From the NCBI GenBank assembly GCA_022450585.1, contig JAKUPR010000008.1, forward strand, positions 22,321 to 57,709: a stretch of DNA of 35,389 bases, written 5' to 3'. Source of the DNA: Anaerolineales bacterium. GTDB lineage: Bacteria > Chloroflexota > Anaerolineae > Anaerolineales > UBA11657. How positions within the stretch are numbered: position 1 is the first letter of the stretch; each line of letters starts with the position of its first letter. This document shows positions 24,506-33,973 of this stretch, piece by piece. A program made the translations under genes and the position numbers. The notes under the pieces were generated by a model. It saw only the letters and a list, made by a program, of their open reading frames with translations. It had not been told where the DNA came from and searched no databases.

Positions 24506-25543
24506 CTATTTCTTCAGTAGTTGTCCTGATGTTCCTAGCCGCTCGATAATATCTCTAATTACTACAATACTACGACGAAACTCTGACAACGACACATGTT
24601 CGTCAGGAGTGTGGTCCAGGCTTGAATCTCCGGGTCCATAGGCTATAGTGGGGCATCCCCAGGTAGGAGCCACTATGTTCATGTCTGAAGTACCGGTTTT
24701 TAGCAAGAAGCGTGGTTTGCCACCCTCGGTACGTATTGATGCGAGTGCGGAGCGTACGAGGCCTGTGTTCTTTGGAGCGCGATAAGCGGGCACTGCAGCC
24801 GCCAACGATTCGATCGCAATGTCATTACCAATTAGATCGCGAATCTGTGAATCCATCTCTGGTACGGATAATCCCTCTGGTAACCGGAATGTCACTTGTA
24901 GCTGTGCGTGTTCAACTATACCGTCACTATCTGAATGCATGGTACGCAGTGTGGGCGTCAACTTCTCAAATGTCATAGACCGACCCTGATTGAACTCGTT
25001 GGTCCAAGTCACGATTTTGTCCCAAGCGGTGACTGTAGTCTCACATACGCCCGTCTTTTTACTTGCTGGATGAGCCACGTCTGACGTAGCAGTAAGCATG
25101 TATGTCACTGACCCCTTGTATCCAAGCGTTACTTGGTCCCACCCACTTGGCTCTCCGATAATTAATGCATCAGGCTTTGGGAAATGTTCGCGCAGGTGGG
25201 AGGCGCCTGCAGAATTTCCTTCTTCGTGAACTGCGCCCACAACAGTGATTCGTATATTTTGGTTTGTGCACTGAGATGCAGCTGCGACGAACGCCGCTAG
25301 CGGCCCTTTAGCATCTACTGCGCCTCGGCCAAAAAGAAGGTCTCCCTGCTTCCGAACTGGTAATTTGCCAGGGACAGTGTCTATGTGCCCCAACAAAAGA
25401 ACATGTTGTTCTCCCGAGCCGATGCGACCTATTGCGTTGCCAGCAGGGTCAATTTCAGCTTGAAATCCAGTGTTCTCCATCTGCTCGGTTAGATAGCCCA
25501 CAGCTTCACCTTCGGAGTAAGTGGGACTGTATATTTCCATCAA
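24506..25543 (-). CDS. lysK: [LysW]-lysine hydrolase
   Basis: This M20-family zinc hydrolase is the last step of the carrier-bound pathway: it cleaves the bond between LysW and lysine, releasing lysine. Motifs are VLLLGHIDTVPG (His and Asp), GRGAVDAKGPLAAF, VHEEGNSAGA (catalytic Glu pair), IIGEPSGWDQVTLGYKG and the C-terminal GPGDSSLDHTPDEHV. It is last in the lysine operon, which separates it from ArgE/DapE relatives. The start is unclear. The longest frame with a usual codon begins TTG-ATG at 25543/25540, immediately before IYSPTYSEGEAV, about ten residues short of the expected first helix. Upstream in frame lies ATA (25570) overlapping the hicdh stop as ATAA, with GGAGAGA correctly placed. 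Confidence 0.9.
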   Translation of the reverse strand: MMEIYSPTYSEGEAVGYLTEQMENTGFQAEIDPAGNAIGRIGSGEQHVLLLGHIDTVPGKLPVRKQGDLLFGRGAVDAKGPLAAFVAAASQCTNQNIRITVVGAVHEEGNSAGASHLREHFPKPDALIIGEPSGWDQVTLGYKGSVTYMLTATSDVAHPASKKTGVCETTVTAWDKIVTWTNEFNQGRSMTFEKLTPTLRTMHSDSDGIVEHAQLQVTFRLPEGLSVPEMDSQIRDLIGNDIAIESLAAAVPAYRAPKNTGLVRSALASIRTEGGKPRFLLKTGTSDMNIVAPTWGCPTIAYGPGDSSLDHTPDEHVSLSEFRRSIVVIRDIIERLGTSGQLLKK

Positions 25544-25566: not shown

Positions 25567-26565
25567 TTATGACAATCTCTCCTGAACATCTTTCAGTATT
25601 TCTGCTGTAGTCGACGTACCACCCAAGTCTGGGGTGTAAATTCCGGATTCTAGCGTGGCGGACAGTGCTTCACGCAACTGCTCCGCTGCTGCGTTGTGCC
25701 CGATATCTGAAAGGGCCATTCCTAAACTGAGCATAGCGGCGATGGGGTTTGCAATTCCTTTGCCGGCTATGTCGGGCGCTGATCCGTGTACCGGTTCGTA
25801 TATGGCGTGATTATCTCCAATATTTGCCGAGGGTGCAACTCCTAGTCCTCCTACGAGCGCGCTTGCGATGTCAGATAATATGTCGCCATACAAGTTGGGT
25901 GCTACGATTACATCGAAGTTTTCGGGTGTGCGCACCAGATCATGTGCAAGCGCATCAACCAGCCTTTCCTCGATTCTGATCTCAGGAGCGTAGGTTTTTA
26001 CCGTCTCACGTACTGTGTCTCTAAACAGGCCGTCCGACACGGTAAGCACGTTGGCTTTGTGCGCGATTGTAAGGATGCCACGGCGTTGTTGTGCCTTCTC
26101 TGCAGCTATGCGAGCAATGCGCTCGCAAGCTTTCCGAGTGATTCTTCGTTCTGCGATGGTACTGTCCCGATCTGTCCAGCGCTCATTGCGTATGTATAGT
26201 CCTTCTGTGTTCTCCCGCACTATTAGGATATCGATGTTGGCCTGCGAAGTCGTAACGGGCATCGAGCATGCTGGTCTCAGATTTGCGTAAAGGTTCAGTT
26301 TCTGTCGCAAATCAAGTATTGGACTGCTGTATCCGGGTGCTCCTCCGGAGGGAGAGCTAGTTGCACCGAACAGAGCGACTGAGCAACGCTCAATTGCAGC
26401 TATTGTGCTTTCGGGTAGGGCGTTCCCGGTTTCTTGGAAGCATCTCCATCCCACAGGATGTATTTCAGTATTGAGGCCTAGGTCTAGCGTGTCGAGGATT
26501 TCAGCTGTGGTCGGGATAACTTCGGCGCCGATCCCGTCCCCTGGAAGGAGGCATATGGTGGTCAT
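25567..26565 (-). CDS. hicdh: Homoisocitrate dehydrogenase
   Basis: This cytosolic NAD-dependent beta-decarboxylating dehydrogenase oxidises homoisocitrate to 2-oxoadipate. It belongs to the isocitrate/isopropylmalate dehydrogenase family, shown by LLPGDGIGAEVIP, LRQKLNLYANLRPA, ILIVRENTEGLYI, the IAHKANVL lysine region, APNLYGDILSDIASALVGGLG and EPVHGSAPDIAGKGIANP. ENTEGLY and its surroundings resemble Thermus homoisocitrate dehydrogenase more than LeuB. Placement between lysU and lysK supports the lysine assignment over leucine or TCA roles. Length (332 aa) is normal. It starts 31 bases after lysU, and its stop lies by the probable lysK start. Some homologues also accept isocitrate; that cannot be judged here. 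Confidence 0.9.
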   Translation of the reverse strand: MTTICLLPGDGIGAEVIPTTAEILDTLDLGLNTEIHPVGWRCFQETGNALPESTIAAIERCSVALFGATSSPSGGAPGYSSPILDLRQKLNLYANLRPACSMPVTTSQANIDILIVRENTEGLYIRNERWTDRDSTIAERRITRKACERIARIAAEKAQQRRGILTIAHKANVLTVSDGLFRDTVRETVKTYAPEIRIEERLVDALAHDLVRTPENFDVIVAPNLYGDILSDIASALVGGLGVAPSANIGDNHAIYEPVHGSAPDIAGKGIANPIAAMLSLGMALSDIGHNAAAEQLREALSATLESGIYTPDLGGTSTTAEILKDVQERLS

Positions 26566-26596: not shown

Positions 26597-27100
26597 TTAA
26601 GAATCTATTTGATTCTGTACTTTTTGTTTGACAAATTCTATCACCCCTCCGACCTCCAATATGTCCCGAGCGGTCTCTGAAAACGGAGCAAAAGGAAAAT
26701 TGTGGGCGTCTAAAGCTATTGTATGATGTTGCATGTCGACCATGATGTGCCCTCCGTGTTCTGCTTCGGCTACTGCTCGTGGACAGATAATGGCCGGCAA
26801 ACCATTATTGATGGCATTGCGGTACCAAATCCTTGCAAAGCTTATCGCAATGACTGCTCCTACACCTGCCGCCGTCAGACAGGTGACCGCCTGTTCACGA
26901 GAGCTGCCATTACCGAAATTCTTCCCTGCAACTATGATGTCGCCCGTCTGAACATTGGATGCGAATGTGGGATCAAGGTCTTCAAGTGCATGAGACGCCA
27001 TCTCAGTTGGGTCGTGCATTGTATAGGTATATTTGCCGGGAAAAATTACATCAGTGTTGATGTTGTCTCCATATTTCCATATCCGTTTTTGTGGGTTCAT
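26597..27100 (-). CDS. lysU: Homoaconitase small subunit LysU
   Basis: This is the swivel-domain subunit of the aconitase-family enzyme that interconverts homocitrate, homoaconitate and homoisocitrate. Signatures are [17 protein letters not shown] at the N-terminus, [18 protein letters not shown] with the conserved Gly-Ser-Ser-Arg substrate loop, and [19 protein letters not shown]. Length (167 aa) is typical of separate small subunits (LeuD/LysU). The start overlaps the lysT stop by four bases, so the subunits are made together. The sequence alone does not separate LysU from LeuD; the operon does. Confidence 0.92.
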
Positions 27101-28386
27101 AGTGCCTCGAATTCACGCGGATCCGTTATCATTCCTGCCACGGCAGTAGCCGCAGCAACCTCTGGACTTGCAAGAAAGATCTCAGCTTCTGGCTGACCCA
27201 TACGCCCGCGAAAATTGCGGTTACCTGTGGAAAGACATACGTCTCCGGGAGCCAGTACTCCCATATGATTTCCCATGCAGGGTCCACAGCCGGGTGTACC
27301 AAGGGTTGCACCCGCTTCTAGTAGGGTGGTAATGTATCCTTGTTCAATTGCTGCCTGTAAAACCTGGCTGGATGCAGGTACTATCAGCATCCGTGTTCCA
27401 TTTGCTATCTTCCGGCCATGCAGTAGTCGTGTTGCCACAGCTATATCTTCTAGACGCCCATTGGTACAGGTGCCTAGAAACACTTGATTGACCTTTTGAC
27501 CAGCTACCGCTTGGACCGATTTTACGTTGTCCACGCTATGAGGGCATGCGACCTGTGGTTCAAGGGTGTCCAAATCAACCTCGACTGCTTGTGAGTATAC
27601 TGCTCCTTGGTCTGGGTAGATTGCATTCTCTCTTATGGATGATTGTTTATCATTCCTGTTTGAGTGCACTGATAGCCATTCAAACACAAGATCGTCCGGT
27701 GGCAGATAGGCGTTTTTAGCACCAATTTCCGCCATGAAATTTGGGATGACCATGCGGCTTTCGATGCTCAGTGTGGAAACTCCTGATCCGTCAAATTCTA
27801 CCGAAGAGTACAATCCGTAATCGGCGCCAAGTTGCCCTATAAGGTGCAGGCATAAGTCTTTGCTGCTGACACCTAGTGGGAGTGCTCCACTGAGGGTCAC
27901 CTGTATACTTTCGGGTACACGCAGCCATAGTTCACCGGTTGCCCAAAGTGTTGCTGCTTCGCTGCGCCCAACTCCTGCTCCAAATGCTCCCATCCATCCA
28001 AAGTGAGTAGTATGACTATCTGCGCCGAGAATAAGTTGCCCCGGCAAAATCAACGCTTCTTCGCTAAGCACTTGATGGCATATGCCCCGTCCAACTTCGA
28101 AAAAATTGTTGATACCTTGGTCAGACACGAATTTGCGGACTTCAGCATGATTGCGAGCATGTAATGGGGTTGGTGGTGGCGCTGCGTGGTCAAGTGTAAT
28201 GGCCAGTTTTTCGGATTCATATACGTGCTCCAAACCAAACTGGGAAAATATTTTGGCTATGGCGGCCGTGTTATCATGCGACAGGATGCGATCTGGCCGT
28301 GCGTCTACTGTTGTTCCTACGGAAACTTCTGTCACCCCAGAGGCACGGGCGAGGGCTTTCTGGGCGAAGGTTTGTGCTAGTATCAT
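27097..28386 (-). CDS. lysT: Homoaconitase large subunit LysT
   Basis: This is the catalytic [4Fe-4S] subunit that works with LysU. Cluster cysteines are visible in [13 protein letters not shown] and [14 protein letters not shown], the latter providing the CxxC pair. [23 protein letters not shown] and the [20 protein letters not shown] end motif are family hallmarks of the isopropylmalate isomerase/homoaconitase group. Length (429 aa) is normal for a split enzyme. It overlaps lysS upstream and lysU downstream by four bases each. Context assigns it to lysine rather than leucine synthesis; a second role in leucine synthesis cannot be excluded. Confidence 0.92.
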
Positions 28387-29576
28387 CTAGTCTCTTTGTC
28401 TTGCTCCTCTTTCACTGCCGTAATACCAGACCTGTTTACTACGTCTTCCCATTGATGAAGCAACTCGTCAACGTCGTTGAGTGTGAGGCGTTTGTGGTCT
28501 GCCAAGGCTTTGATGTGACGTGTGACTGTCTGCAGATTTTCAGGTTCAATACTGATTCCGAGTTGTGCAGCGCGGTCTTGTACCGCGTTCCATCCGGTCA
28601 ATTTGTGTGCAATAGAAATGTAGCGGGTGAGTCCGAAATCAGCAGGATCAAGTATTTCATAAGTATCTGGGTTGTTCAGCATTGCTTTAGCGTGAATACC
28701 GGCTTTGTGAGTAAAAGCTGTAACGCCCGTGATGTAGTGATTGAATGGTATTTCAATTTCTACCTTATCCGCCACAAGTTGATTCAGTTCGTGCAGTTGG
28801 TGTAGGCGATATTTAGTGCGTACCGATGAAGGTTCACTTGCGTATAGGCGTGCAATCAGACCTTCTAGCGATGTAATTCCGTTGCGTTCGCCGATGCCTA
28901 GTACTGTTGTATCAATGTGAGTGGCTCCGGCATTTAGTGCTGCGAAACTGTTGGCGATGGCGCAACCTGTGTCGTTGTGGCCATGGAATTCGATGTCTGC
29001 GTCAGTTATTTGACGCAGTGTTCGGACGAGGTCCGTGACCTGGAAGGGAGTGGCTACCCCGACTGTGTCAGCTAATCCGAAACGGTCGACAACATTGAGA
29101 TCAGATATTGATTTGTAGACTCGCATGAGGTCTTCGTTTGTACTACGAAAGGAGTCCTCCGTAGAGAAACGTAGTTCAATTGGCGGGGCAGAGGTACGTA
29201 TGTAGGTCAAGACTTCGGAAGCTATGTCGATGATTTCGTCAATTGTTTTACCGTGGCTGAAATCCCGTAAATAGGATGAAGTCCCTATGACGACGTCTAA
29301 TCCGTCCGCTCCAGTGTCCAAGGCTATGCGTGCATCATCCATGTGGCAGCGGATGTGTGTTAATATTTTTGAGGAGAGGTCAAGGGATGCGACTCGAGTG
29401 CAGTCGGCGCGCGAGTTGGGTGATGCGCAGGGGGAAGTAAGTTCGATATATTCAACTCCGAAATTAGACAATGCTTGCGCGATTTCTACTTTGTCATCAG
29501 AGGTGAATTCGGCACCGACGAATTGTTCGCCCTCACGAAGGGTGCTTTCAATGATAGAAAAGTCATTTAATGGCAT
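28383..29576 (-). CDS. lysS: Homocitrate synthase LysS
   Basis: This enzyme condenses acetyl-CoA with 2-oxoglutarate to give homocitrate, the committed step of the pathway and usually the point of lysine feedback inhibition. DRE-TIM metallolyase motifs are [14 protein letters not shown], the central [11 protein letters not shown] strand, [15 protein letters not shown] (metal-binding His pair) and [29 protein letters not shown] follows in the C-terminal communication region. Length (397 aa) matches Thermus-type homocitrate synthase, shorter than isopropylmalate synthase, which has a LeuA regulatory domain. It follows lysJ by 47 bases and overlaps lysT by four. Confidence 0.92.
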
Positions 29577-29623: not shown

Positions 29624-30796
29624 TTAGATAGATTGGCTTTCACGTAGGACTTTTGTGACTATGGCGCTAATTTGGTTACAATCTTTGTGGCTGATGACCA
29701 GTGGTGGGAGTAGGCGCAGTATAGTTTTTCCAGCTGGAAGAGCAAGCAGCCTACGTTTTTGTAGCTCCCTTAGAATTGGAGTAACTTTTTGCTTTAATTC
29801 AATGCCAATCATTAAACCTAAACCGCGCACTTCTCTCACAATGGGTAAATTGGATTCGCGGAGTTGGGTAAGAATATGCTCTCCCATTTCTGCAGCTCGT
29901 TCCGGCAGCTTCTCAGTTTCAAGGACTTTCAACACTGCGACAGAAGCAGCGCAAGCCAACGGGTTGCCACCGAAAGTAGAACCGTGGACTCCAGAAGGCA
30001 ATTCGCTGACCCGGGTTCCTAGTAGTGTTGCACCCATTGGTAGGCCCCCTGCCAATGACTTCGCAATACAAAGGATGTCCGGCTCTATACCGTAATGCTC
30101 GTAAGCGAACATCTTCCCTGTTCGGCCCAGTCCTGTTTGTACTTCGTCAATGATCAGCAATGCTCCATTCTGGTGACATAGTTGTTGAGCTGTGTGCAGG
30201 TATTCCGCATCTGCCAGTCGTACACCGCCTTCTCCTTGTACCACCTCCAGAATCACCGCCGCGGTACGTTCGCTTACGGATTTATGTAGTGCTTCAGTTT
30301 TGTTGAAGGGAATATGGGTAACGTGTGGTAGCAAAGGTTCAAATGGCATGCGGTGCTTTTTCTGGCCCGTGAGGGTAAGTGACCCCATGGTTCTACCATG
30401 AAAGCTACGTAGTGTGCTAATTAATTCGCTGCGTCCGGTGCTTATACGTGCGAATTTCAGTGCGGCTTCAACGGCCTCAGTGCCAGAGTTGCATAGGAAG
30501 GCGCGCTGCATTCCTTCCGGTGGTAGTGCTGCTAGGTGGTCGAGTAGACGTGCCCGCTGGTCGTTGTGGAACACTTCTGGGCAGGTGATAAGTTGTTTCG
30601 CCTGTTTTTCTACGGCCGAAACCACGGAAGGATGACAATGCCCTATATTGACAACTCCGTGACCGGAGATGCAGTCGATATACTCCTGTCCATTCTCATC
30701 CCATACGTGTGACCCCTTGCCTCTTACAATTGTAAGATTGCGTTTGGGATAGACGCCGCTTGTATGTATTGCTTCGATTGTCTGAAAATTATCCAT
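29624..30796 (-). CDS. lysJ: [LysW]-aminoadipate semialdehyde aminotransferase LysJ
   Basis: This PLP-dependent class-III aminotransferase aminates LysW-bound aminoadipate semialdehyde, using glutamate, to give LysW-bound lysine. Motifs are NSGTEAVEAALKFARIST (phosphate loop), FHGRTMGSLTLTGQ, the cofactor-binding LIIDEVQTGLGRTG and the PLP lysine in ILCIAKSLAGGLPMGA. STFGGNPLACAASVAVL follows. Length (390 aa) equals ArgD/LysJ proteins. Sequence alone does not separate LysJ from ArgD; the operon supports LysJ, and the enzyme may serve both pathways. Its start lies eight bases inside lysZ, so translation is coupled. Confidence 0.91.
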   Translation of the reverse strand: MDNFQTIEAIHTSGVYPKRNLTIVRGKGSHVWDENGQEYIDCISGHGVVNIGHCHPSVVSAVEKQAKQLITCPEVFHNDQRARLLDHLAALPPEGMQRAFLCNSGTEAVEAALKFARISTGRSELISTLRSFHGRTMGSLTLTGQKKHRMPFEPLLPHVTHIPFNKTEALHKSVSERTAAVILEVVQGEGGVRLADAEYLHTAQQLCHQNGALLIIDEVQTGLGRTGKMFAYEHYGIEPDILCIAKSLAGGLPMGATLLGTRVSELPSGVHGSTFGGNPLACAASVAVLKVLETEKLPERAAEMGEHILTQLRESNLPIVREVRGLGLMIGIELKQKVTPILRELQKRRLLALPAGKTILRLLPPLVISHKDCNQISAIVTKVLRESQSI

Positions 30797-31595
30797 CGAT
30801 CGTTGTTCCTAATCCCTGCAGTGCTCTTGCAATCGGATTTGGTCCCCTCCCATCTCCAAGAATCACCTGAGACACGCCGCCCTGTAAAGCCTCAAGGCAA
30901 CCAATAAGTTTGCGTTTCATTCGCCCTTTCGCTACAGTGGTAATAGCTTTTTCAAGTTGGCTAATATCCAAGTGGGGGATGCGACTGTTTTCGTCTGTGA
31001 CATCATGCAGCAGCCCAGGGACGTTGCTAAGGATTAGCAGAATTTTGGCGCCTAGTGCGGTAGCTATCTGAGCGGCGGCGCGGTCACCATCAATGTTTAG
31101 TGGTTGCCCAGATGGTGAGATTGCTACTGGAGCTACAACTGGCGTCAAGCCACAGTCAAGCATCGCTCGCAGTGGCTCAGGATTAACCTGTCGAATACGT
31201 CCGGTATTGTCATCTCGCAATATTTTTCGTTTGCCGTTTTCCACGATTCGCAGCGTGGATTTACGATCTGCAATCAACAGTTGTCCGTCAAGTCCGCTGG
31301 TGCCTGCGGAGTTTACTCCAATAGATTGTAGGTGGGATACTAGTTGTCGGTTCAATAGACCGGTCGCCATTAAGAAGATCTCCAGTGTGCGCCGGTCAGT
31401 GTATCGGCTAGTATGGCCACTGACTGAAGTGACAAAGCGTGGTGGATGTCCAAGCTCTTTACCTAGATTGGTCGTCATCTCCGAACCACCGTGTACAAGC
31501 ACAATTTTCTTCCCTTCATGAGTATGTGCTGCTACATCTGACGTAATGTCATCAGGATTTATGCCAATCGCGCCTCCAATTTTGACAACTAACAT
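30789..31595 (-). CDS. lysZ: [LysW]-aminoadipate kinase LysZ
   Basis: This amino-acid kinase family enzyme phosphorylates the side-chain carboxylate of LysW-bound 2-aminoadipate. It begins MLVVKIGGAIGINPDD (Lys and Gly-rich phosphate contact) and shows VLVHGGSEMTTNLGKEL, SGLDGQLLIADR and the GDRAAAQIATALGAKILLILSNVPGLL nucleotide-binding region. Length (268 aa) is typical of LysZ/ArgB. It follows lysY by 10 bases and overlaps lysJ by eight. The lysine role rests on operon context; the ArgB-like fold is certain. Confidence 0.92.
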   Translation of the reverse strand: MLVVKIGGAIGINPDDITSDVAAHTHEGKKIVLVHGGSEMTTNLGKELGHPPRFVTSVSGHTSRYTDRRTLEIFLMATGLLNRQLVSHLQSIGVNSAGTSGLDGQLLIADRKSTLRIVENGKRKILRDDNTGRIRQVNPEPLRAMLDCGLTPVVAPVAISPSGQPLNIDGDRAAAQIATALGAKILLILSNVPGLLHDVTDENSRIPHLDISQLEKAITTVAKGRMKRKLIGCLEALQGGVSQVILGDGRGPNPIARALQGLGTTIDG

Positions 31596-31605
31596 GATGT
31601 CTGTT

Positions 31606-32643
31606 TTATATGGGATGGAGCCCGGTAAACTCTAGGGCAGTTTCCTCTTCAAAACCGCACATTAGATTAAGGCATTGCAATGCTGTTCCAGCTGCTCCTT
31701 TCATCAAATTGTCGATTGCACATAATGTGACTACGCGGCCGGTTTGGGAATCTAAGTCAAAACTTACATCGGCGAAATTGGTTCCCGATAGTATTTTTGG
31801 CTCCGGTCTCCGAAAATTACCCTGTTTCTCGCGTACTATTCGTACGAAGGGTTCTTGTTCATACGTGGCACGATATGCGCGCCACAGGTCCCTCTCCGTT
31901 GTGTCAGGTTTGGTAAAGGCATGGGCGGTAGCCAGTGCTCCGCGTACTATCTCAATAGCTGTCAGACTCATGTGGGTATCGGAAATACCCAGACTCTGTT
32001 GCACCTCGGCGACGTGACGGTGTCCGACCGGCGCATAACTACGCACAACACCTTTGCGTACCGGGTGGTGGCTGCTCTGATTGACCTTTCTGCCTCCCTC
32101 AGATGATCCGGTCTTTACTTCGGCGATGATTGGACGGTCTCTAACAAGAAGATTGTGTTGGACTAACGGTAGTAGCGCCAGCATTGTGGCAGTGGCGTTG
32201 CATCCTACGCCACTTACATAATTTGCCTTGCGGATAGCTGCCCGGTGAATTTCTGGTAGACCATAAACAAAGCGGGGCAGCCAATCAGGCGCGGCGTGTG
32301 CTTGGCCGTACCAGTGCTGATAATCATCATGTGACCTTAGTCGAAAGTCAGCCGAAAGATCAATGATACGTGGAGCCAACTTTGCATAATCCTCAATTGC
32401 TCGCTGTGCGATGCCATGCGGTTGCGCCAGCACGAGTATGTCAGCTTTTGTTAGCGCATCAGATGTGACGAAATTTGGCAATTTGCACCCTCGCAGGTGG
32501 GGATGTGCGCGACTCACTGGTTGTCCGGCATAGGTGCGAGATATTGCCTGCCCGATTTTCACCTCCGGGTGATTGACTAGCAATCGTAGCATTTCTCCCC
32601 CTGTGTATCCGGAGGCGCCGACAATAGAAACTAGGATACTCAT
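31606..32643 (-). CDS. lysY: [LysW]-aminoadipate phosphate reductase LysY
   Basis: This NADPH-dependent reductase turns LysW-bound aminoadipyl phosphate into the semialdehyde. It is of the ArgC family: SIVGASGYTGGEMLRLL (NADP-binding GxxGxxG at residues ~9-14), the catalytic Cys in YVSGVGCNATATM and the TGSSEGGRKVNQSSHHP loop. The C-terminal part has a substrate-contacting His region (APVGHRHVAEVQ) and DNLMKGAAGTALQCLN. Length (345 aa) is normal. It starts four bases inside the end of lysX. Confidence 0.92.
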   Translation of the reverse strand: MSILVSIVGASGYTGGEMLRLLVNHPEVKIGQAISRTYAGQPVSRAHPHLRGCKLPNFVTSDALTKADILVLAQPHGIAQRAIEDYAKLAPRIIDLSADFRLRSHDDYQHWYGQAHAAPDWLPRFVYGLPEIHRAAIRKANYVSGVGCNATATMLALLPLVQHNLLVRDRPIIAEVKTGSSEGGRKVNQSSHHPVRKGVVRSYAPVGHRHVAEVQQSLGISDTHMSLTAIEIVRGALATAHAFTKPDTTERDLWRAYRATYEQEPFVRIVREKQGNFRRPEPKILSGTNFADVSFDLDSQTGRVVTLCAIDNLMKGAAGTALQCLNLMCGFEEETALEFTGLHPI

Positions 32644-33485
32644 TTGGTTACCTGAAGAGCCTGGTCTATTATCATGCCTGGTAAGTCAACACCGGTTAGC
32701 GGCACTGTGGAGTGGAATTCCATTGTGTGGTTTATTTCATTCACTAAGAGCCCGCGCTCAGGGTCCTCAAGTAGGTCAATTGCTAGTACACCGCCTCCCA
32801 CTGCCTGTGCGGCGCGCTGACAAATATCGTGTAGTTCTGCAGTGACTTTACACTCGCTTGCAGTGGCGCCACGGGCGGTGTTAGTAAGCCAATGCTTAGA
32901 GTGACGATAAATAGCGACTGGCGTCTCTGTATCAATTACGAATGCACGGATGTCGCGTCCGGGTTTTTCGATTAGCTCCTGTATGTAGTACAACTGGTGC
33001 TGGAAGCTTCCTAAGACCTCACGATGCTCAAAGACTGCTTCGGCCGCATCACGGTCATTGATGCGGTTGACCAAACGCCCCCAAGAGCCGATTACGGGCT
33101 TGATTACGTATGGGTAACCTAGTTCTTCCCCGGCATCAATTGCTGTATCTACGCTGAATGCGAGGCGGGTGCTTGGCTGCGGAATCCCAGCTTGGGTAAG
33201 AGCGATGGTCGTAGACACTTTGTCGCTGCAGACTGTCGCCACTTCATGCGAGTTGATTGTAGGTACGCCGATGCTGTTTAGCACCTGGGCAGCGTACAGT
33301 CCTCTACTTGTACTTAAGCTGCGAATAATAACAGTGTCATAACGCTGCCAGTATTCCGCTTTGTTGAGTTCGAACGTGACGTCTCGATCCAGAAGCCTGT
33401 CGTAGGTAACGTCACGATTATCGAGGGCTGCAAATAGCCATTTTTCCTCGACGCGCAGTCGAGAATATAGGACTCCAATACGCAT
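32640..33485 (-). CDS. lysX: LysW-2-aminoadipate ligase LysX
   Basis: This ATP-grasp ligase attaches the alpha-amino group of 2-aminoadipate to the C-terminal Glu of LysW. The protein shows RIGVLYSRLRVEEKWLF at the N-terminus and the ATP-grasp lysine in YPYVIKPVIGSWGRLVN. The metal-binding LLVNEINHTMEFHSTVP near the C-terminus has the expected Glu and Asn ligands. Length (281 aa) is typical of LysX/ArgX. It lies 50 bases downstream of lysW. Only one such ligase gene is present. I assign the lysine role by context; ArgX has the same fold. Confidence 0.93.
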   Translation of the reverse strand: MRIGVLYSRLRVEEKWLFAALDNRDVTYDRLLDRDVTFELNKAEYWQRYDTVIIRSLSTSRGLYAAQVLNSIGVPTINSHEVATVCSDKVSTTIALTQAGIPQPSTRLAFSVDTAIDAGEELGYPYVIKPVIGSWGRLVNRINDRDAAEAVFEHREVLGSFQHQLYYIQELIEKPGRDIRAFVIDTETPVAIYRHSKHWLTNTARGATASECKVTAELHDICQRAAQAVGGGVLAIDLLEDPERGLLVNEINHTMEFHSTVPLTGVDLPGMIIDQALQVTK

Positions 33486-33535: not shown

Positions 33536-33721
33536 TTATTCTCCCCAGTCCTCTGCTTCTTCGGGTGCCAGCATTATTGAAAGGGGCTCTAGTGAGCGCA
33601 CTTCGAGATCAGCCCCGCAGTCTTCACATGTGAGTATCTCTCCTAACTCGACTTGCTCTAGGGTGAGCTTGCCGACACACTCAGGGCACTCTGAACTGGT
33701 AGTAATAGTGTTGGATGTCAT
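33536..33721 (-). CDS. lysW: Amino-group carrier protein LysW
   Basis: LysW is the small acidic carrier that holds 2-aminoadipate and its derivatives on its C-terminal Glu, protecting the amino group and presenting the substrate to LysX, LysZ, LysY, LysJ and LysK. The 61-aa protein has a zinc ribbon with C12-x2-C15 and C32-x2-C35 and ends in the hallmark EDWGE, with Glu61 as the attachment site. The frame extends upstream to 33805, but that extension reads through the terminator. The ATG at 33721 has AGAGGAG (33736-33730) eight bases before it, which fixes the start. It is the first enzyme-pathway gene after the leader attenuator. Confidence 0.95.
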   Translation of the reverse strand: MTSNTITTSSECPECVGKLTLEQVELGEILTCEDCGADLEVRSLEPLSIMLAPEEAEDWGE

Positions 33722-33756: not shown

Positions 33757-33782
33757 AAAAAAAACCCCACATTTGGTGGGGT
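33757..33782 (-). terminator. Intrinsic terminator in the lysine-operon leader (attenuator)
   Basis: On the minus strand, ACCCCAC (33782-33776) and GTGGGGT (33770-33764) form a perfect 7-bp stem with a five-base loop. A tract of seven to eight T follows at once (ending at 33757). No minus-strand gene lies upstream except a 35-codon leader ORF, and lysW starts 36 bases downstream. The terminator must therefore act within the operon leader, before lysW. Confidence 0.9.
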
Positions 33783-33867
33783 CGCTCTCTGCAAATGGAA
33801 CTCAAGTTCTTCTACTACTGCACCTCTGCTTCCACAGGCAAATCAGCTAACCCCGCACGGGTAAGCT
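33778..33867 (-). promoter_or_regulatory. Anti-antiterminator hairpin and antiterminator pairing of the lysine attenuator
   Basis: Segment 1, AGCTTACCC (33867-33859), pairs with segment 2, GGGTTAGCT (33853-33845), in an 8-bp stem with one T-T mismatch and a five-base loop. Alternatively, GGGGTTAGCT (33854-33845) pairs with segment 3, AGCGACCCC (33786-33778), in nine pairs (one G-T) with a single bulged A. Segment 3 contains the 5' arm of the terminator stem, so the 2:3 pairing excludes the terminator. Segment 1 begins within the last lysine codon of the leader ORF. Confidence 0.82.
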
Positions 33868-33922
33868 TTTCCTTCTTGGACTTCTTGGCCTCGATGCTAA
33901 GAGGTAGTGAGAATGTAGTCAT
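33815..33922 (-). CDS. Lysine-operon leader peptide (35 aa)
   Basis: The short ORF runs from the ATG at 33922 to two consecutive TAG stops (33817-33812). It reads MTTFSLPLSIEA, then KKSKKEK (five Lys codons, all AAG, among seven codons; 33887-33866), then LTRAGLADLPVEAEVQ. It has no domain and is probably not functional as a protein. Its role would be to make ribosomes stall on the Lys codons when charged tRNA-Lys is scarce. The stall covers segment 1 and frees segment 2 to form the antiterminator. A footprint reaching about 12 bases past the A-site codon would end between segments 1 and 2, as needed. The ribosome-binding site is poor (AGGGA only two bases before the ATG). Confidence 0.83.
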   Translation of the reverse strand: MTTFSLPLSIEAKKSKKEKLTRAGLADLPVEAEVQ

Positions 33923-33944
33923 AATCCCTAGTTTTCCGCGCAGG

Positions 33945-33973
33945 AGTGTATCACATGATCAGGATTCGTGCAA
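33945..33973 (-). promoter_or_regulatory. Candidate promoter of the lysine operon
   Basis: TTGCAC (33973-33968), a spacer of exactly 17 bases and TACACT (33950-33945) read on the minus strand. Transcription would start near 33938, about 16 bases before the leader ATG. Both hexamers are imperfect, so this is the best candidate rather than a certain promoter. Confidence 0.42.

Follow-up and report, generated by a model that had tools for sequence, protein, structure and literature searches.

The window analysed here is a 35,389-nucleotide stretch from an Anaerolineales genome (G000; 2.07 Mb, 87.5% complete), whose named near relatives are the Anaerolineales MAGs ERR599127_bin.8, UBA3001, UBA1136 and UBA3499, and also Anaerolineaceae bacterium BD1. 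Profile searches identified on its minus strand a complete LysW-type aminoadipate lysine operon in the order lysW-lysX-lysY-lysZ-lysJ-homocitrate synthase-homoaconitase (two subunits)-homoisocitrate dehydrogenase-lysK, in agreement with the initial annotation, which had placed such an operon behind a lysine attenuator at 33757-33922. The first gene, lysW, encodes the aminoadipate carrier protein (33536..33721; TIGR01206) and is followed by lysX (32640..33485; TIGR02144), the argC-like reductase gene lysY (31606..32643; TIGR01850), the [LysW]-aminoadipate kinase gene lysZ (30789..31595; NF010659), the aminotransferase gene lysJ (29624..30796; TIGR00707), homocitrate synthase (28383..29576; TIGR02146), the large (27097..28386; TIGR01343) and small (26597..27100; TIGR02087) subunits of homoaconitase, and the [LysW]-lysine hydrolase gene lysK (24506..25543; NF003367), all above cut-off. 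The best match of lysJ is NF042418, below the cut-off of that model. Homoisocitrate dehydrogenase (25567..26565) was assigned by context, its best match, TIGR02088, being just below cut-off. Since no match to lysA was obtained in the G000 genome and argJ is present, the lysW operon is likely the lysine route of this organism, with arginine likely coming from the classical acetylated route. The upstream neighbour, an aldo/keto reductase gene (34258+), is divergent, and a terminator in the lysW leader therefore cannot serve it.

The whole leader element lies on the minus strand, from 33922 to 33757. A predicted leader ORF of 35 codons, MTTFSLPLSIEAKKSKKEKLTRAGLADLPVEAEVQ (33815..33922), runs from an ATG at 33922 to a UAG at 33817-33815, and an AGGGA upstream of it is a putative ribosome site. 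No Pfam family matches the leader peptide. Its control region, KKSKKEK (33866..33886), contains five Lys codons among seven residues, all of them AAG, starting at 33886, 33883, 33877, 33874 and 33868. Further upstream, a putative -35 box, TTGCAC (33968..33973), was recognised by eye and by conservation; it is separated by a 17-nt spacer from a putative -10 box, TACACT (33945..33950), and the transcript would be expected to start near 33938. Across the family of the window, the leader is preceded by a conserved TTTGCAC...TANACT block. A generic sigma-70 promoter scan reported no promoter.

Downstream of the control codons, every pairing listed in the initial annotation was found. Segment 1, AGCUUACCC (33859..33867), pairs with GGGUUAGCU at 33853-33845 within segment 2 (33838..33854), with 8 pairs and a U-U mismatch (-12.0 kcal/mol). 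Segment 2 can instead pair with segment 3 (33778..33792). The core of this second helix, GGGGUU(A)GCU (33854-33845) with AGCGACCCC (33786-33778), lies where it had been proposed and has 9 pairs and one bulge; that description was incomplete, as UUUGC (33842-33838) forms five further pairs with GCAGA (33792-33788), so that the full antiterminator comprises 14 pairs (-19.5 kcal/mol). The terminator hairpin 3:4 (33763..33783), also anticipated, is formed by 8 pairs between 33783-33776 and 33770-33763 (-12.9 kcal/mol); a U-rich tail extends from there to about 33757. Because segment 3 is common to the antiterminator and terminator helices, the two are mutually exclusive, as previously claimed.

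We then compared these features with chance expectation. Among the other ATG ORFs of 18-60 amino acids in the window (422 counted), none exceeded 3 Lys in 8 residues, versus 5 here, and five Lys in eight residues occurred in 1 out of 11,382 ORFs from shuffled windows. The energy of the leader-to-segment-3 pairing was reached in 10 out of 2000 dinucleotide shuffles. Both the Lys cluster and this pairing are thus unlikely to result from chance. The total folding energy of the leader is ordinary (z -1.6). When segment 3 of the window was compared against 31 leaders from other groups, none of them paired with it as well as its own leader. Over 36 leaders from many families, segment 3 likewise prefers its own leader to those of other groups (paired p about 1e-5), with only 12 of the 36 beating every mismatched leader. 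Lys-rich short ORFs can arise by chance, and a terminator combined with such an ORF might be no more than a constitutive roadblock, or else an ordinary small gene, without any amino-acid sensing. The rarity of the Lys cluster and of the antiterminator in shuffled sequences, the conservation of the pairings described below and the match between the control codons and the operon product make this explanation very unlikely.

The leader was aligned over eight genomes of the family (the window and seven related genomes). Matching K-rich leaders were found in G001, G003, G004, G006, G008 and G009, and no readable leader of the family has lost the Lys codons. Across the eight genomes, 94% of the pairs are kept for 1:2, 94% for 2:3 and 98% for 3:4, versus 11-71% when the partners are slid by 1-3 columns. 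Both of the helices that compete for segment 3 are conserved. The initial annotation would have been refuted by a lack of such conservation in relatives, and on this point it was not. Compensatory changes were observed in each helix: columns 5:22 (UA/CG) in 1:2, columns 24:91 (CG/UA) and 20:94 (UA/CG) in 2:3, and columns 94:112 (AU/GC) and 99:107 (GC/AU) in 3:4. In G003, the U-A pair beside the GGGG run in 2:3 is replaced by C-G and the matching 3:4 pair changes too, column 94 of segment 3 thereby covarying with the partner base in each of segments 2 and 4. Covariation within the family is modest, with 1-3 compensatory cells per helix and borderline shuffle controls for 1:2. G003 also breaks the 1:2 register and may use another one. 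A second frame with a TTG start, reading LRRRK, overlaps the Lys-rich ATG frame in its lysW leader (L127); owing to this frame reading RRRK, the assignment of that leader to the Lys type remains in some doubt.

Riboswitches and protein-controlled attenuators likewise operate through terminator/antiterminator pairs, and lysine riboswitches control lysine genes in other phyla (PMC3766115). The leader RNA could accordingly bind lysine or a regulatory protein directly, the short ORF being incidental. Against this, no Rfam family reaches its threshold in the leader, the best being Trp_leader (RF00513; 18.3 vs. 41 bits, E 0.83), and the lysine riboswitch (L-box) gives no Rfam match up to E 5. Moreover, the conserved part is the Lys codons and not an aptamer, and the arg operons of the same genomes share the layout, with Arg codons. 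Direct sensing by the RNA or by a bound protein is consequently very improbable.

These elements point, with high confidence, to transcription of the lysW operon being controlled by a ribosome-mediated attenuator responsive to charged tRNA-Lys. In the proposed mechanism, RNA polymerase would transcribe the leader with a ribosome following behind. When lysine is plentiful, the ribosome would pass the Lys codons and sit on or beyond segment 2, so that segment 3 would pair with segment 4 and transcription would end at the U-tract near 33757. If tRNA-Lys were instead uncharged, the ribosome would stall at the last Lys codon and cover segment 1; the freed segment 2 would pair with segment 3, no terminator would form and the operon would be read. 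Without translation, 1:2 and the terminator are expected to form. We infer lysine as the signal in the cell, and likewise the efficiency of termination. A leader RNA of this kind could also influence downstream initiation, the switch acting on lysW translation and not on transcription. The U-rich tail directly after segment 4 and the position of the lysW ribosome site (at about 33735-33730), outside every pairing, speak for a transcriptional switch and make a translational one highly unlikely.

For this attenuator, we computed equilibrium folds under ribosome masks, with an assumed footprint of 13 nt beyond the start of the A-site codon. The predicted switch was obtained, in line with the stalling logic of the initial annotation. 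A stall at the last Lys codon gives P(2:3) = 0.69 in the full leader at equilibrium and 0.97 in nascent RNA before segment 4 exists, while a ribosome on segment 2 gives P(3:4) = 0.99. RNA without a ribosome shows P(1:2) = 0.97 and P(3:4) = 0.98. In the window RNA, segment 2 is uncovered by a stall at 33868 and weakly by one at 33874, but by none further upstream: with the ribosome at any of the first three Lys codons, 1:2 re-forms and the terminator results. In G006, G008 and G009, stalls at nearly all Lys codons give a clean switch, and the leader stop, a UAA, lies inside segment 2. In the genus of the window, the loop is one base shorter, the frame is therefore shifted and the stop codon is found about 20 nt past segment 2. 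As a consequence of this position of the stop, the equilibrium fold of the sister genome G001 prefers the antiterminator even with a ribosome at the stop. G003 and several Arg-type relatives show no switch in equilibrium folds, so kinetic folding must be assumed there.

To extend the comparison, 120 lysW stretches of the order and 80 named loci were used. Attenuator-like leaders are found at the operon start in many Anaerolineae, and some loci have no recognisable leader. The leader precedes lysW where this gene is first, and argG in argG-argH-lysWXYZJK operons. Three pathway classes were set by ArgJ and homocitrate synthase (HCS), as inferred from draft-genome gene content, and the leaders were chosen partly for K/R richness, which affects their presence and not the K-to-R ratio. 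In the ArgJ+ HCS+ class (family f1 and G031), KK is present in 8/8 leaders and RR in none of the 8. The ArgJ- HCS+ class displays KR or RK in 13 of 15 leaders, and the ArgJ- HCS- class RR in 25 and KK in 1 of 26. By gene content, KK leaders would go with an ArgJ-type arginine route, the LysW route there being expected to serve lysine only; KR leaders are probably found where the LysW route serves both lysine and arginine, and RR leaders where it probably serves arginine. Genus-level tests of codon class against pathway class give p values of 0.0004 to 0.004, which overstate the independent evidence because the LysX-LysY tree requires only about three class changes. An independent-pairs test over the tree found only two pairs and has no power.

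Several other observations concern these classes. We considered lysA alone as a class separator and rejected it, some HCS genomes also having lysA, while ArgJ and HCS together did separate the classes. G003 was likewise examined as an exception, with a Lys leader on an operon without homocitrate synthase; it was discarded as such, its aminoadipate genes being found in a second operon. Mixed Lys/Arg leaders occur at L115, L139, L165, L170, L173, L143 and L153, where the operons probably serve both pathways. Neither lysA nor a close homocitrate synthase was found in G036, G070, G078, G180 and G248 at the cut-offs used. The homocitrate-synthase-like gene of G099 (L310) has no adjacent homoaconitase, and its leader ORF MNPVCSKSNYKRLPTSALRFSDVGRWRFS is accompanied by a terminator. 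Finally, the Thermomicrobia-type lysW loci L055, L070 and L073 have a common conserved leader ending in PAPRRLGAPAAFGGAGGRWL with a long terminator, possibly an Arg attenuator outside Anaerolineae.

With about three class changes, the cross-genome statistics are weak alone, and pairs of leaders within the same genome therefore carry the argument. In the Thermanaerothrix-like loci L072, L241 and L254, an RR leader (LPRTRRPKPTS, as read in L072) opens the argG operon, and the divergent homocitrate synthase operon carries MNSAVPSTISELKKGKKIQPTPHR or a near copy. In these loci, the Arg-leader operon (argG-argH-lysWXYZJK) stands back to back with the Lys-leader operon, in which homocitrate synthase is first. 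Similarly, G012 has RRSSRR before argG and PKREFRLPSRPKWG before lysW. From these pairs, it was predicted that f1 genomes carry Arg leaders on their classical arg operons. A subsequent search of the stretch upstream of argC revealed an Arg leader with a terminator in 6 out of 6 readable genomes (G001, G002, G003, G004, G006 and G031, i.e. the family of the window plus one near relative), which are related and hence do not represent six independent events. The leader of the classical argC...argG-argJ operon is MIAAHGRRRARRSHRTPGLAHDLA in G001, which belongs to the genus of the window, and those of the other five genomes contain SRRARS, SRRART, SRSR, VRRARS and SRRRS. In the same six genomes, the lys leaders have KK and no RR. 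A CCGCCAG...CTGGCGG terminator precedes argC at these loci (L331, L319, L320, L321, L322 and L334, in G001, G006, G002, G003, G031 and G004, respectively). The arg-terminator pattern has no match in G000, whose argG contig ends close upstream, and G009 was left out of the count, the stretch before its argC being a run of N. The argC and argJ matches of G003 (G003:C3:158994-160007 and 164893-166088) are interrupted by in-frame stops or a frame break, which may be errors of assembly.

We consider it somewhat probable that Anaerolineae possess a widespread clan of attenuators whose control codons were exchanged between Arg, Arg plus Lys and Lys as the LysW pathway moved between arginine, shared and lysine use. 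On this reading, mixed leaders would respond to lysine and arginine alike where the pathway is bifunctional, and Lys and Arg versions could coexist as separate copies in a single genome. From protein sequence, it is difficult to tell whether a LysW/ArgW operon serves lysine or arginine, and the leader codons suggest the product as the cell itself treats it. Product and sensor having changed together, the set offers a natural experiment for studying how regulation adapts when a pathway changes. In this large, mostly uncultured class of Chloroflexota, lysine and arginine synthesis appear to be commonly controlled by leader-peptide attenuation.

Our search of the open-access literature yielded no paper describing leaders of this type in Chloroflexota, nor one describing arginine operons with Arg-codon leaders. 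An earlier study worked with Rfam attenuators for His, Leu, Thr and Trp alone, and gives a gamma-proteobacterial origin as possible for them (PMC3766115). Most descriptions of leader-peptide attenuation come from Proteobacteria and Actinobacteria, and the authors of PMC2965389 knew, at that date, of no such systems elsewhere before their own case in Firmicutes. PMC6386406 describes the Salmonella speF leader as adopting alternative mRNA conformations set by the arginine level; on that account, it resembles the Arg leaders of the relatives in sensing arginine and differs from them in controlling polyamine genes and not arginine synthesis. Like the enterobacterial trp, his, leu and thr leaders, the window element would work by a four-segment logic in which a ribosome stalls at control codons; the amino acid is different and there is no sequence homology. 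The likeness to trp and his attenuators noted in the initial annotation is borne out by the Lys-codon cluster, the exclusive helices, the masked 1:2 pairing and an operon whose product is the amino acid encoded by those control codons. A leader peptide reportedly mediates lysine attenuation at the Thermus thermophilus lysine cluster as well (work attributed to Tsubouchi et al. in J Biol Chem, about 2005). In the Thermus loci, homocitrate synthase is preceded by the leader MLARVKKLGRRGVG, exact or nearly so, together with a terminator, whereas the window element precedes lysW. Both combine a short Lys-codon peptide, exclusive pairings and a terminator with a LysW-type aminoadipate operon. The Thermus peptide has 14 residues, and its G+C-rich segments show no clear sequence similarity to the window element; a GVG-stop ending over segment 2, common to Thermus and several Anaerolineales leaders, is the only sequence feature shared with some of the relatives and may reflect either homology or convergence. 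The window element thus represents classical attenuation with a known logic, and the codon exchange across the clan is more novel.
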